Origin: Candidatus Edwardsbacteria bacterium
Lineage (GTDB): Bacteria > Edwardsbacteria > AC1 > EtOH8
Reading direction: 5' to 3'
Assembly: GCA_018821925.1 (NCBI GenBank)
Contig: JAHJLF010000073.1
Coordinates: 1 to 59,896, forward strand
Length of the DNA stretch: 59,896 bases
Positions 412 through 34,997 of the stretch are shown one piece after another (the first letter of the stretch is position 1; every line of letters begins with the position of its first letter). The position numbers and the translations under genes are program-made. The notes beneath the pieces are model-generated. The model ran no database searches. It was not told where the DNA came from and worked only from the letters and a program-made list of their open reading frames with translations.

Positions 412-801
412 GGTCTTTCTCCTTTTTGGTTGTTGGTTTTTTTATCCGCAGACTAACGCAGATGGATACAGATTATTTTCCCTTTTCCGGTTGGCTTTCA
501 CCGCCAAGACACCCCCGTTTTTTCGGGGTTCACGCATCTTATTTTTAACAGTGGTTCTCAAGGACACAGTGGCTTTTATTCTTTAAACTTTGAACTGACG
601 TACCGTTCACACATTCAGCCAGTCAGGCAAGCAAGTCTTCTCAGTGTGACAGGTCTTTCAACTTTAAACTGGGTAGCGTGCTATTGGTCCCCCCATCCCC
701 GTAACCCAACACAAAATAATCCGTTCAAATCCAGACCAATCAGTTGAATCTGCGTTCTATTGGTCCTCCCGCACCCGCCCCGATCCGCGTTCCAGACGTA
801 T

Positions 802-927
802 CCCTGTCGCATCAGCTCTGCCGCTGAACCAAGAAGGCCGTTAAGGATTTGGCAGTGTCCGAGCGCAGCGAGTTTGTCAAATTCAGGCCTTAGGGTCTGT
901 GCCTGCCGGGCAGAGGTGCAGCGACGA
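802..927. repeat. Dispersed structured repeat A, copy 1
   Basis: A 126-bp unit about 80% identical to 5139-5263. It is a nested imperfect inverted repeat: outer CTCTGCC (815-821) faces GGCAGAG, and inner AAGGCC (834-839) faces GGCCTT (886-891). In the other copy the inner stem is GGCGGCC/GGCCGCC, so both arms changed together. Function unknown; the strand of any transcript is unknown. Confidence 0.7.
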
Positions 928-961
928 GTTCTCTTTGTAACTTTCTCTTCAAAGAGAAAGT
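928..961. repeat. Hairpin tail module (TTCTCTTTGTAAC type), copy 1
   Basis: TTCTCTTTGTAAC followed by a perfect 9-bp hairpin ACTTTCTCT-TCAA-AGAGAAAGT. The same module ends both copies of repeat B (near 9181-9218 and 11584-11621), although repeats A and B are otherwise unrelated. Confidence 0.65.
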
Positions 962-1103
962 GGGAAGCGGTAGATGATAGATCAGGCACAAAATAATCCG
1001 TTAAAATCCAAACCAATCCGTTGAATCCGTGTGCTATTGGTCCTTCTTCTTACACCAGCCGGCTGTTGAATATATACGCCCGATCTATCGCTCATTTTAT
1101 CCT

Positions 1104-4895: not shown

Positions 4896-5138
4896 GGCTT
4901 ATATGAATGGTTGATAATGCAGTTAAAAGACCTATTGCCGGTATCCGGTATTCAGGAGATAGTATTCTGTAGAACTTGCTTCTGTTCTCAGTGCTGGTAT
5001 CCCTGCTTTCAAATCACCATCCTCCTCCGTCCCTGTCGCCTTTGTTCTGTCGCTGGCAAACCCAATGCAGGTCCCCGGTCTTGGTTCCCCGCCTTTAAGC
5101 AATTTTGCCCAGGCGAATGGGTGCGGCTGGCCTCGGTC

Positions 5139-5263
5139 CCCTGTCGCCTCAGCTCTGCTGCTGGTCAAAGGCGGCCGTTAAGGATTTGGCAGTGTCCGAG
5201 AGCAGCGAGTTTGTCAAATTTAGGCCGCCGGTCTGCAGCCGCCGGGCAGAGGTGCAGCGACGA
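5139..5263. repeat. Dispersed structured repeat A, copy 2
   Basis: Second copy of repeat A. Inner stem GGCGGCC (5170-5176) / GGCCGCC (5223-5229) replaces AAGGCC/GGCCTT of copy 1, a two-sided change that keeps pairing. The ~40-bp centre is nearly invariant. The hairpin tail that follows copy 1 is absent here. Confidence 0.7.
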
Positions 5264-5369
5264 CCTTTTGACCTCACCACTTCGTAAGCCAGAGCAACCG
5301 GTCATACTCAGTGCAGGCTCTTCCCTCTCCTAATGCTTTAGGAGAGGGGTAGGGGAGAGGTGCGGCACA

Positions 5370-8299: not shown

Positions 8300-8652
8300 G
8301 GGGGCGACAGGTTTCGACGGATTAAGATAGATCAAAGTGGCATGTCGAGAATGTCAGAGGGCTCGTTAAAATACTGGCAAGCCATCAAAATGGCAACTTT
8401 AATTACGCTTTAGCAGCTTAGTTTTAAGCGCTATGTCGTTGTAGGTCTCCGCCCATCGGGCTTACAAACGACATCGTAAAGAAGGGCTGGTTCCGGGTGA
8501 TGTCCCGTCATTCGGAATAAGATTCCAGGGGCTGCTCCGACCAGGACCGTGTTTATGCGGGCCTTTAGGAAAAGACAAAACATAAACTAAACATGTAGAG
8601 GCTTCGGTTGTTCTTTTTTCGGACGTGGGTTCGATTCCCACCGCCTCCACCA
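8300..8652 (+). ncRNA. ssrA: tmRNA (transfer-messenger RNA)
   Basis: Rescues stalled ribosomes by trans-translation. The 5' end GGGGGCG (8300-8306) pairs with CGCCTCC (8642-8648) to make the acceptor stem with one G-U pair. The T arm GTGGG-TTCGATT-CCCAC precedes it, and an encoded CCA ends the gene at 8652. The tag reading frame runs from GCA at 8377 to TAG at 8421 and encodes ASHQNGNFNYALAA, ending in the standard YALAA degradation signal. The conserved TTTCGACGG follows the 5' end. One-piece, non-permuted form. smpB is not in the window. Confidence 0.96.
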
Positions 8653-8689: not shown

Positions 8690-8950
8690 TCAGCGCAGGC
8701 GGGCACCACTCCAAAGCGTGAAGCATGACAGAAGCCCCGATAACCAAGCGTATCGGGGCACCATCCCAAAGTGCAGAGCTTGGCAACTGTTCATCGAGTA
8801 GACCGCAGGCCATATCGAGATGAACAGCCCCCCGGCAAAGGCGGGCACCACTCCAAATATCCAACGCTTGGCAACTGTTCATCGAGTAGGCCGCAGGCCA
8901 TATCGAGATGAACAGCCCCCGGCAAAGGCGGGCACCATTCCAAAGTGTGG
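8690..8950. repeat. Tandem repeat cluster downstream of tmRNA
   Basis: Two 88-bp-period units (8778-8857 and 8866-8944) contain CTGTTCATC...GATGAACAG hairpins and end GGCGGGCACCA-YTCCAAA. A partial unit at 8710-8771 shares GGCGGGCACCACTCCAAAG and a GCCCCGATA...TATCGGGGC hairpin. Each unit ends in CACCA, like the tmRNA 3' end. Function unknown. Confidence 0.7.
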
Positions 8951-8959
8951 AGCATGACA

Positions 8960-8999
8960 GAAGCCCCGATAGCATAACCTATCGGGGCTTCTTATTTCT
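8960..8999 (+). terminator. Rho-independent terminator downstream of the tmRNA repeats
   Basis: 13-bp hairpin GAAGCCCCGATAG-CATAAC-CTATCGGGGCTTC followed by TTATTTCTTTT. The same hairpin occurs at 9262-9293, so the two flank repeat B copy 1. Confidence 0.75.
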
Positions 9000-9033
9000 T
9001 TTATTAAGAAAGTGTACAGCCTTCTAACATCAA

Positions 9034-9218
9034 CTTAGCCGGCGAAGTATGAACCTGCTAAGCCGGGTTTTAGGGGACGGCCGCGTTCAGCGTTGCAAGC
9101 ATAAAAGTCGGAAAACCAATATAAAAGCGGTTTGAAAATATTGTTGGATTTAATACTCCAGCTGGTCGTCCCCTAAAGCTTCTCTTTGTAACTTTCTCTT
9201 GGCTACAAGAGAAAGTTA
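9034..9218. repeat. Dispersed structured repeat B, copy 1
   Basis: 185-bp unit with three stems: CTTAGC (9034-9039)/GCTAAG (9057-9062); TTTAGGGGACG (9069-9079)/CGTCCCCTAAA (9167-9177) around an ~87-base middle; and a 13-bp hairpin tail TAACTTTCTCTTG-GCTA-CAAGAGAAAGTTA (9189-9218). Copy 2 has compensatory changes in the first two stems. No ORF is conserved between copies. Possible ncRNA or structured mobile repeat. Confidence 0.75.
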
Positions 9219-9614
9219 AATGTTCGTTTCTTAAAATACTCTGGCTCATCAGAAAAACACAGAAGCCCCGATAGCATAACCTATCGGGGCTTTTCATAAT
9301 CACTTCTTCTTCACCACAGAGTCGCAGAGGTTTTATTGCTTTTTGTCATTCCCGCGCAGGCGGGAATCCAGACTTTTTTAACCGCAAAGACGCAAAGGAC
9401 GCAAAGACTTTATTACTTTAATCAGGATGACGCGCTTCAAATACTGTCTACTGTCTACTTTCACCGCAGAGCGATGCACTGAGTTTAATCGAATTGTCGC
9501 AGAGACAATCTAGTTATTGGACAATCAGTAAAAATCCGTTGAATCCGTGCGCCATCCGTTCCCCTTACTGTCTCCTGTCTCCTGACTACTGTCTACCGTA
9601 TACTTTATACTCTA

Positions 9615-9661
9615 ATCTTTTGCCGCAGCAGCGGCACCCCGCAATGGCGGTGGCAGCTTTA
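9615..9661. repeat. Repeat D, copy 2
   Basis: Matches 7941-7987 except for two bases (CCGCAGCAG for CCGTAGCAG, and GCAATGG for GCATTGG). Confidence 0.65.
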
Positions 9662-9699
9662 AGCCCGCCCTACTGTCGCCTGCCCGGCCAAGGGAACGG

Positions 9700-10230
9700 C
9701 TACTGGATCATCTGCTTGGCGAAGGCGGTGATGGTGGGTTTCAGGTCGATGTCTCTTACCGGGTATTCGAAGATTTTCTGCAGGTACGGTTTCAGCCTCT
9801 GGTGGGCCTCGCCGAACCCCTGCGACGACTCCCGGGCCTCCCACCGCCACTTGTCGGCCACGTCCACTTTGCGGTCGTATTCCTTGACGCCGTTGGCCTG
9901 CTCCTCGCAGTCCAAAAACTCGGTGCCGAAGACAAAGCCCGCCTTCTTGGCCTTGTTCAGCAGGTCAATGAACTCGGCGTTGAACCGTCTCAGCTTCTTA
10001 GACGAAGGCGGGTACACCAGGATCGCCTGCTTGCGCAGCGACTCGATGTTGGCCGAGAACTTGTCGAAATCGCCGGGCAGGTAGTTGTTGAAGTCGTTGG
10101 CCAGCTCGGCATACTGTACCACCAGCGGCCGCATGGCTCGGAGGTACTCCTGGTCGCGGGGGTCGGGCCCGCAGCCGGCGGATGAAAAGACCACCGAGAA
10201 ACATGCCGCGGCGATGAGAAAATATCGCAT
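9700..10230 (-). CDS. Putative lipoprotein, helical
   Basis: 176 residues. A short signal peptide ends in the lipobox SSAGC with the lipidated Cys at residue 20, so the mature protein is probably anchored at a membrane. The rest is polar and mostly helical by composition, with no motif I recognise; it ends LKPTITAFAKQMIQ. AGGAGG five bases before the ATG fixes the start. It stands alone, 330 bases downstream of ftsE on the same strand. Function unknown. Confidence 0.75.
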   Translation of the reverse strand: MRYFLIAAACFSVVFSSAGCGPDPRDQEYLRAMRPLVVQYAELANDFNNYLPGDFDKFSANIESLRKQAILVYPPSSKKLRRFNAEFIDLLNKAKKAGFVFGTEFLDCEEQANGVKEYDRKVDVADKWRWEARESSQGFGEAHQRLKPYLQKIFEYPVRDIDLKPTITAFAKQMIQ

Positions 10231-10561
10231 TTTTACCTCCTGGTTAAATAATAAAATAATATCTATTTCCCTCTCCTAATGCTTTAGGGGAGAGCCTGCA
10301 CTGAGCCTGACTTATTGTTGCACAAACCGAAGTGGTAGGGTGGGGTCCGTTCCCTGTCCGTTTTTCGCTTCACCGCCGAGCACACAGAGATCACGTAGAA
10401 TTCTAAAATACTGTAAAAATCTCCCGCCGCTTCAAACACCGTCCGGCTGGCATAACAGGCTTCTCGATCATTTCAAACAACGCTTTGCTCAAATAGTGTG
10501 CGCCTCAAACGACACCCCGCCTATCTCCCATCATCCGTTCCCCATTATCTGTAATCTGATC
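10231..10561. other. Gap between ftsE and the lipoprotein gene
   Basis: No gene, and in particular no ftsX. Holds a CTCTCCTAA-TGCT-TTAGGGGAG hairpin (about 10274-10296) and several GTTTGA motifs in minus-strand reading (about 10430-10520). Confidence 0.55.
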
Positions 10562-11254
10562 CTACTCCTCCCGCCGCCGCTGGGTGATCCTGGCCGGCAG
10601 GTCCTTCTCGATCTTTCCGTTGTCCAGCATCAGCACCCGGTAGGGCATCTTCTTCACCAGCTCCTGCTCGTGGGTGGCCATCAGCACCGCCGTTCCCCTG
10701 GCATTGATGTCCTTCAGGATCTGGATTATCTCCAGGGTCCCCTGGGGATCCACGTTCCCGGTGGGCTCGTCGGCCAGCAGGATGAACGGATCGTTGACCA
10801 GGGCCCGGGCGATGGCCACCTTCTGCTGTTCGCCGCCCGACATCTGGTGCGGCAGGGAGTGCCGCTTGTGCGACAGTCCCACCTGGTTGAGGGCCGCCAT
10901 GGATTTCTTGTGGATCATCCCGTGGGAGGCCCCGGTCACTTCCAGGGCAAAGGCCACGTTCTCGTAGACCGTCCGCTCCGGCAGCAGCTTGAAATCCTGG
11001 AAGATCACCCCCAGCTTTCGCCTCAGCTGGGGTATCTGCCGGCGCTTGATGCAGTCCGAGGCGAACCCGGCCACCTTGACCACCCCCTGATCCGGGAAAT
11101 CCTCCATCATCAGCAGGCGCAGGATAGTGCTCTTGCCGGAGCCCGATGGACCGATCAGAAAGACGAACTCGCCTTTTTCGATACTAAAATTGATCTCTGT
11201 CAGCGCCTGCCAGCTGTTCTGGAAGGTCTTGGAGACATGCAACAGTTCTATCAT
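10562..11254 (-). CDS. ftsE: FtsE-type ABC transporter ATP-binding protein
   Basis: 230 residues. Walker [10 protein letters not shown] (about 35-43), signature [15 protein letters not shown], Walker [12 protein letters not shown] and the switch His in MATHEQELV are all present. FtsE pairs with FtsX at the divisome to activate peptidoglycan hydrolases. The match is to FtsE in length and sequence style, but no ftsX follows; the next gene is an unrelated lipoprotein. A related single ATPase (LolD-like) is the main alternative. A TATAAT hexamer lies about 35 bases before the start. The Shine-Dalgarno is weak. An M23 peptidase that could act with it is at 21.3 kb. Confidence 0.8.
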
Positions 11255-11622
11255 AATCGCTTAAATATTTTACGTTTTCGATTTTTCATTATACCATAAA
11301 TGGGCCGTTGGGATAATCTCTTTTCACTCGCTATCCATGCCCCCTCATTGACCATTTTAAAATCCATCAGCCAGCTCCAAAGAATCATGTGATCCGGAGA
11401 TTTAGACATATTAGTATTATTAACAACAACATTAACTTGGCCTGTGAAGCATGAAACAGCCAAGCCGGGTTTTAGGGGATGGCCGCGTTCAGCGGTCCAG
11501 GGCTAATTATTCAGCATCCGGCAATGACGGCGGTTTGAGTGCTTTGTTCCAATGTATACTTTAGCTGGTCATCCCCTAAAGCTTCTCTTTGTAACTTTCT
11601 CTTGGCTACAAGAGAAAGTTAA
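11255..11622. other. Gap between pdxA and ftsE
   Basis: About 370 bases. The half next to pdxA is repeat B copy 2. A 70-codon minus-strand ORF reaches ftsE with an ATGA overlap but begins inside the repeat, so I do not call it. TATAAT for ftsE lies near 11288. Confidence 0.5.
11436..11621. repeat. Dispersed structured repeat B, copy 2
   Basis: Stems CTTGGC (11436-11441)/GCCAAG (11459-11464), TTTAGGGGATG (11471-11481)/CATCCCCTAAA (11570-11580), and the 13-bp hairpin tail 11592-11621, which ends one base before the pdxA stop codon. Middle segments GCCGCGTTCAGCG, GCGGTTTGA and AGCTGGTC are conserved with copy 1; the rest has diverged. Confidence 0.75.
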
Positions 11623-34866: not shown

Positions 34867-34887
34867 CGATAACCACCGGTTATTACC

Positions 34888-34990
34888 GCTTCCCTCCGCT
34901 GGTGTTACCCAGTTCAGGTTAAGGGGTCGCCCTATCTTTTATTTGATCGGGCCTCTCAGCCTGGCATTTATGCCTTATGCTCCCCCAGCC
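34888..34990 (-). promoter_or_regulatory. TPP riboswitch (THI element)
   Basis: Minus-strand sequence contains the conserved aptamer pieces GGGGGAGC, CAGGCTGAGAGG, GACCCCTTAACCTGAACTGG and CACCAGCGGAGGGAAG. Binding thiamine pyrophosphate should favour the terminator at 34831-34866 and shut off thiSGHE. Confidence 0.95.
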
Positions 34991-34997
34991 GATACGA

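Follow-up and report, generated by a model that had tools for sequence, protein, structure and literature searches.

A multi-copy structured repeat of Candidatus Edwardsbacteria and its probable nature as a gene-free mobile hairpin element

The window analysed here, a 59,896-nucleotide stretch of a Candidatus Edwardsbacteria genome, contains two ~187-bp copies (B1 and B2) of one structured non-coding repeat, flanked by ordinary bacterial genes. This raises the question of whether such copies represent a folded RNA or a structured mobile repeat, the two readings offered in the initial annotation. The comparison set comprised 10 genomes, including the own genome (G000) and three of the same genus (G001, G002 and G003).

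Both copies were found to be complete class I units with the same order of parts on the minus strand: hairpin 1, the CAAAGAGAAG tag, a long-range G-rich stem 2 and hairpin 3 (see the table). The strongest feature, a third hairpin that the initial annotation had missed, is hairpin 1 with its tag (AACTTTCTCTTGGCTACAAGAGAAAGTT plus TTCTCTTTGT, at ~9190–9217 and ~11593–11620), which is identical in both copies; the full minus-strand sequence of hairpin 1 is AACTTTCTCTTGTAGCCAAGAGAAAGTT. Stem 2 reads TTTAGGGGAyG ... CrTCCCCTAAA on the minus strand, with a C-G pair in B1 changed to U-A in B2, and encloses a variable middle of ~90 nt carrying conserved islands. The arms of the two stems noted previously lie where they had been placed (CTTAGC 9034–9039 / GCTAAG 9057–9062 and CTTGGC 11436–11441 / GCCAAG 11459–11464 for hairpin 3; TTTAGGGGACG 9069–9079 / CGTCCCCTAAA 9167–9177 and TTTAGGGGATG 11471–11481 / CATCCCCTAAA 11570–11580 for stem 2), and the comparison of B1 with B2 agreed with the description of a middle diverged apart from its islands. 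The alternative or crossing helix CCGGC/GCCGG that had been proposed is present in B1 only and was counted as non-conserved because B2 reads CCTGT there. Folding z-scores for the two copies were -5.2 and -5.2 on the plus strand and -4.9 and -3.4 on the minus strand.

Positions in the window of copies B1 and B2, their parts and related elements
Feature	Position	Strand	Remarks
Copy B1, complete class I unit	9032–9217	-	model positions 1–187; aligned with 10 other copies
B1 hairpin 1	9190–9217	-	AACTTTCTCTTG-TAGC-CAAGAGAAAGTT; from sequence
B1 tag	9179–9189	-	ACAAAGAGAAG; hairpin 1/stem 2 junction; near-invariant across classes I–III
B1 stem 2 arm 1	9167–9177	-	TTTAGGGGACG on minus; pairs with 9069–9079
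B1 stem 2 arm 2	9069–9079	-	CGTCCCCTAAA on minus; pairs with 9167–9177
B1 hairpin 3	9034–9062	-	CTTAGC...GCTAAG
Copy B2, complete class I unit	11434–11620	-	directly downstream of pdxA
B2 hairpin 1	11593–11620	-	identical to B1
B2 tag	11582–11592	-	ACAAAGAGAAG; identical to B1
B2 stem 2 arm 1	11570–11580	-	TTTAGGGGATG on minus; pairs with 11471–11481
B2 stem 2 arm 2	11471–11481	-	CATCCCCTAAA on minus; pairs with 11570–11580
B2 hairpin 3	11436–11464	-	CTTGGC...GCCAAG; covariation analysis
Class III relative with hairpin 1 and tag	797–967	-	BLAST 96% in hairpin and tag, 92% in inner part
Class III fragment lacking hairpin 1	5135–5263	-	BLAST 79–95% in pieces

No evident coding sequence was found in B1 or B2, the ORF listing giving only short and overlapping frames, and a decayed coding element was rejected on this basis. 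The unit does give rise to spurious ORFs of the FSCxQEKVTKRS type, which could possibly be mis-annotated as proteins; one spurious-looking ORF of 77 aa (9070–9303, minus strand), reading ...TFSCSQEKVTKRS..., crosses hairpin 1.

B1 and B2 are members of a multi-copy family in Candidatus Edwardsbacteria. A BLAST search with B1 against its own genome returned B2 (E 2.6e-41) and further copies, and a search with the hairpin 1 pattern gave 16 sites in that genome, versus 1 for the reversed pattern, and 13, 6 and 10 sites in the three same-genus genomes. A covariance model (CM R1) was built from 11 class I copies, B1 (183.6 bits, E 2e-50) and B2 (167 bits, E 9.7e-46) among them. Across G000–G003 it recovered 15 class I copies scoring over 100 bits (6, 1, 2 and 6, respectively), most of them its own training sequences, together with weaker class II and III copies, and found none in G005, G007 and G008. 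The family is present in all four same-genus genomes, with few or no copies in the rest of the phylum. The count of two copies given initially was too low, although both are real: the window also holds a class III relative (~797–967; 28.1 bits, E 1.3e-6) and a class III fragment, the latter followed by a different hairpin module at 5320–5362 (BLAST match of 100% over 43 bp), and many more copies occur genome-wide.

Hairpin 1 and the tag are common to three subfamilies, which differ in stems 2 and 3: I (TTTTAGGGGACG; Ia a single unit, Ib extended), II (TCCTGGGGGCG, with hairpin 3 GGCCGATCATTTTGGC; a single unit) and III (CTTTCTCTTTGAAGAGAAAG, stem TGTCGCTGCACC). Elements of subfamilies Ib and III are composites in which a second, inverted unit sits at the far end; the class I model detects this second unit as well. 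Hairpin 3 is usually, though not invariably, part of a unit. Almost every copy, whatever its class, has the tag (CAAAGA(G)AA) in the form CAAAGAGAA(G/C), and the islands of the variable middle include (A/G)(A/G)CTAA. Other hairpin modules, such as AGTGCCTCCGCTAAAGCTACGGCACTCGAGGAAGC, were observed in nested position at the loops or tags of class III elements (loci L019, L020, L051 and L055).

The compensatory stem changes first described from two copies were upheld when 11 class I copies were compared. Over 34 pairs, 96.8% of stem cells were paired, and 23 double-sided compensatory cells were counted versus 9.4 in shuffles, which do not preserve relatedness, and at most 4 when the structure was slid, a control that favours the class I structure because the structure was derived from the same alignment; the covariation score of 0.184 compared with 0.100 for shuffles and no more than 0.040 for slid structures. 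Both-side changes occurred in 7 of the 34 pairs and were spread over all three helices, with two covarying and nine invariant pairs in hairpin 1 and changes on both sides in 3 of the 10 pairs of hairpin 3. Class II likewise covaries (five both-side-changed pairs). Neither of the outcomes that the initial annotation had named as refuting its reading was observed: the stems do covary genome-wide, and the copies flank no shared coding element.

At four orthologous loci, whose segments were delimited by hand, identity was 94.8% in stems and islands, 80.2% in loops and 87.5% in flanks (stems versus flanks, p 1.2e-6), indicating slower evolution than the flanks in stems and islands and faster evolution in loops; the flanks are partly coding, and the stem-versus-flank comparison is therefore conservative. 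The slower evolution of stems and islands could reflect host function, gene conversion or continuing activity.

Orthologous sites were also used to assess mobility. Copy B2 is missing from the ftsE–pdxA gap in G001, G002 and G003, and a class Ib copy (G000:C90:20025) corresponds to 8 bp at the orthologous site in the same three genomes. No target-site duplication or clean boundary was seen at these two empty sites, and the insertion ends could not be placed, because additional flanking sequence is absent there too. Because the relatives were assembled from metagenomes, single loci may be affected by assembly error. Some shared sites hold different units in the same orientation: one carries class III in G000 and class II in G002, and the site downstream of ssrA carries B1 in G000 and a unit of another subfamily with different stems in G001 (E 2.2e-9). 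Such differences point to insertion hot spots or unit exchange. Several Ib copies carry another hairpin module, joined at a constant junction, in place of the 3' arm of hairpin 1 and the tag, with an intact orthologue in another species in two cases; the swapped-in module also occurs in the window, at 5320–5362. The orientation of elements relative to genes was random (+|+ 10, +|- 7, -|+ 7, -|- 7).

Covariation, empty orthologous sites and copies scattered in either orientation support the conclusion that the repeat family is mobile, and of the two readings offered initially it is the structured mobile repeat that gains support, although the units may still act as folded RNA. As a separate observation, a 4.1 kb insertion at locus L073 (2443–6571, G000:C90), absent in G002 and G003, comprises an end unit of class III, three cargo ORFs, one of which looked GNAT-like on inspection by eye, and a full class III element; at this site G001 carries a class III element alone.

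We consider it probable that the repeat is a non-coding, non-autonomous mobile element built of a hairpin unit and moved by an enzyme supplied in trans. This enzyme would recognize the hairpin and tag at the outer end of each unit, probably in the form of single-stranded or cruciform DNA, and would then copy or move the element. Only well-folded copies would be mobilized or tolerated, and for this reason the stems would be kept while the loops drift freely.

A transposase-less hairpin-based mobile element of the REP/REPIN/MITE kind is accordingly the best reading; the kind is ordinary, a gene-free mobile hairpin repeat, and the architecture is unusual. The repeat resembles REP and REPIN sequences in that a short intergenic hairpin, non-coding and bearing an unpaired tag, occurs singly and in inverted pairs (the latter, as in REPINs, in classes Ib and III), is mobile and is present several times per genome. 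It differs in its far larger size (about 190 to several hundred bp), its internal long-range stem and its tag, CAAAGAGAA rather than the GTAG/CGTC of REP. It shares with bacterial MITEs a small, gene-free, interspersed intergenic and structured form, presumably moved in trans, but no parent IS was found among the Y1, TnpB, RT and IS110 families, no target-site duplication was seen at the empty sites, and each end is itself a hairpin. As to the terminal inverted repeats of MITEs, Ib and III have diverged hairpin-plus-tag ends, and Ia and II (including B1 and B2) are single units. The TIR elements of TIRtrons/TIRYTs are partly self-complementary inverted repeats, dispersed singly or as dimers, for which a GGGGWSAS motif has been reported (Di Nocera 2013, PMC3733652). 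The stem 2 motif GGGGACGG of the present repeat does not fit GGGGWSAS, and its copies enclose no transposase. The omega RNA of TnpB/IscB and HEARO are likewise structured elements that also exist as stand-alone copies (theirs lie at an IS end), but the present repeat has no Rfam match and the TnpB domain is absent from 9 of the 10 genomes. No integron attC core sites (RYYYAAC / GTTRRRY) were noticed by eye, and the literature searched contained no account of the repeat.

Among the alternatives, a host non-coding RNA family, with several paralogues acting in trans (e.g. by binding protein) and stems selected as RNA, would account for the covariation, the strong folding z-scores and the slow evolution of stems and islands at shared loci. 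It is nevertheless quite unlikely given the Rfam search, in which B1 and B2 had no match at the gathering cut-off and weak matches below it, and given the non-Watson-Crick cells, in which A-C was about as frequent as G-U (14 versus 12 on the strand that reads hairpin 1 first), so that neither strand is favoured as RNA. Copy number and sites that vary between species of one genus, random orientation to genes and the presence in some orthologous copies of unrelated modules in place of hairpin arms also argue against it. The best sub-threshold Rfam match, His_leader (E 0.0093, 32.5 of 49 bits), fell over a flanking terminator-like hairpin and was rejected. Cis-regulation or termination of a neighbouring gene was dismissed on the random orientation, and a phage or plasmid origin on the lack of a meaningful DNA match for copy 1 and the class II end.

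Mobilization of a REPIN-like element by a host Y1/RAYT (TnpA-REP) transposase appears improbable. The hairpin with its unpaired tag and the inverted pairs do resemble REP/REPIN, and Y1 genes are present in 8 of the 10 genomes, including two in the own genome, but no hairpin motif was found within ~1.5 kb of the Y1 loci examined, some of which lie at contig ends, and no RAYT association was found there. Presence does not correlate either: G003 has no Y1 match yet 6 full class I copies, and G007 and G008 have 4 and 3 Y1 genes, yet no repeat copy. Both Y1 genes of the own genome (L070 and L071) are bordered by other repeats of their own (GTAGCATCATAGATGCGACATGG and GGCACAAATTCTATTTGTGCC). Other candidate mobilizers were rejected as absent from the own genome and not tracking the family: the TnpB domain PF07282 was found only in G006 (in a search limited to this domain), the reverse transcriptase domain PF00078 only in G002 and G003, and IS110 was absent from the own genome. 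No parent IS with matching ends was found among the families searched (Y1, TnpB, RT and IS110).

Equally doubtful is a passive origin, in which replication template switching and recombination at palindromes would spread hairpin repeats with no dedicated enzyme. The swaps of the hairpin 1 arm and tag at a constant junction, with orthologues intact in two cases, the nested hairpin modules and the fuzzy insertion ends are in line with such a process, but the conserved tag and islands and the arrangement in two units are seen again in a distant phylum, beyond what palindromy alone requires.

The recurrence was found in gut Clostridia, where units with a hairpin, a AACCAAAGAA tag, a GGGGGC stem and a GGCTAA island occur in plasmid records of Subdoligranulum variabile and on several IMG/VR contigs. 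The class I model detected further units on the gut contigs, within an inverted two-unit element, at E 1.6e-6 and 3.1e-5, values that are optimistic, since the hairpin motif had been the basis for selecting the contigs. The viral contigs are nearly identical to the Subdoligranulum records and so probably derive from Faecalibacterium-like hosts. The Edwardsbacteria and gut elements may share common descent, but similarity beyond hairpin and tag was not significant; outside these parts, class II and the gut elements had in common an 11-base match (GGGGGCGTTCC) at chance level. A tentative, broader reading is that these are cross-phylum modular gene-free elements of Candidatus Edwardsbacteria and gut Clostridia, composed of a hairpin, a CAAAGA tag and a G-rich long-range stem, often as inverted pairs, and perhaps spread by an enzyme of an undescribed kind that would read folded single-stranded DNA rather than sequence-defined ends.

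With its alignment, covariance model, empty sites and orthologous pairs, the repeat constitutes a defined family in which DNA hairpins are kept while stem sequences change. It could be used to test how gene-free repeats spread and whether folded single-stranded DNA or RNA is selected.

Several further features were observed in the window. A tmRNA gene (8300–8652; Rfam 170.7 bits) lies a few hundred bp upstream of B1 and is followed by repeated ~48-bp stretches around 8780–8930. Two identical 32-bp terminator-like hairpins (AGAAGCCCCGATAGCATAACCTATCGGGGCTT) bracket B1 at 8959–8990 and 9261–9292, with a third, diverged one at 8730–8761; the corresponding locus has one such hairpin in G003 and two in G001, where they enclose a different unit. 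A TPP riboswitch aptamer (56 bits) is located at 34874–34996 on the minus strand.
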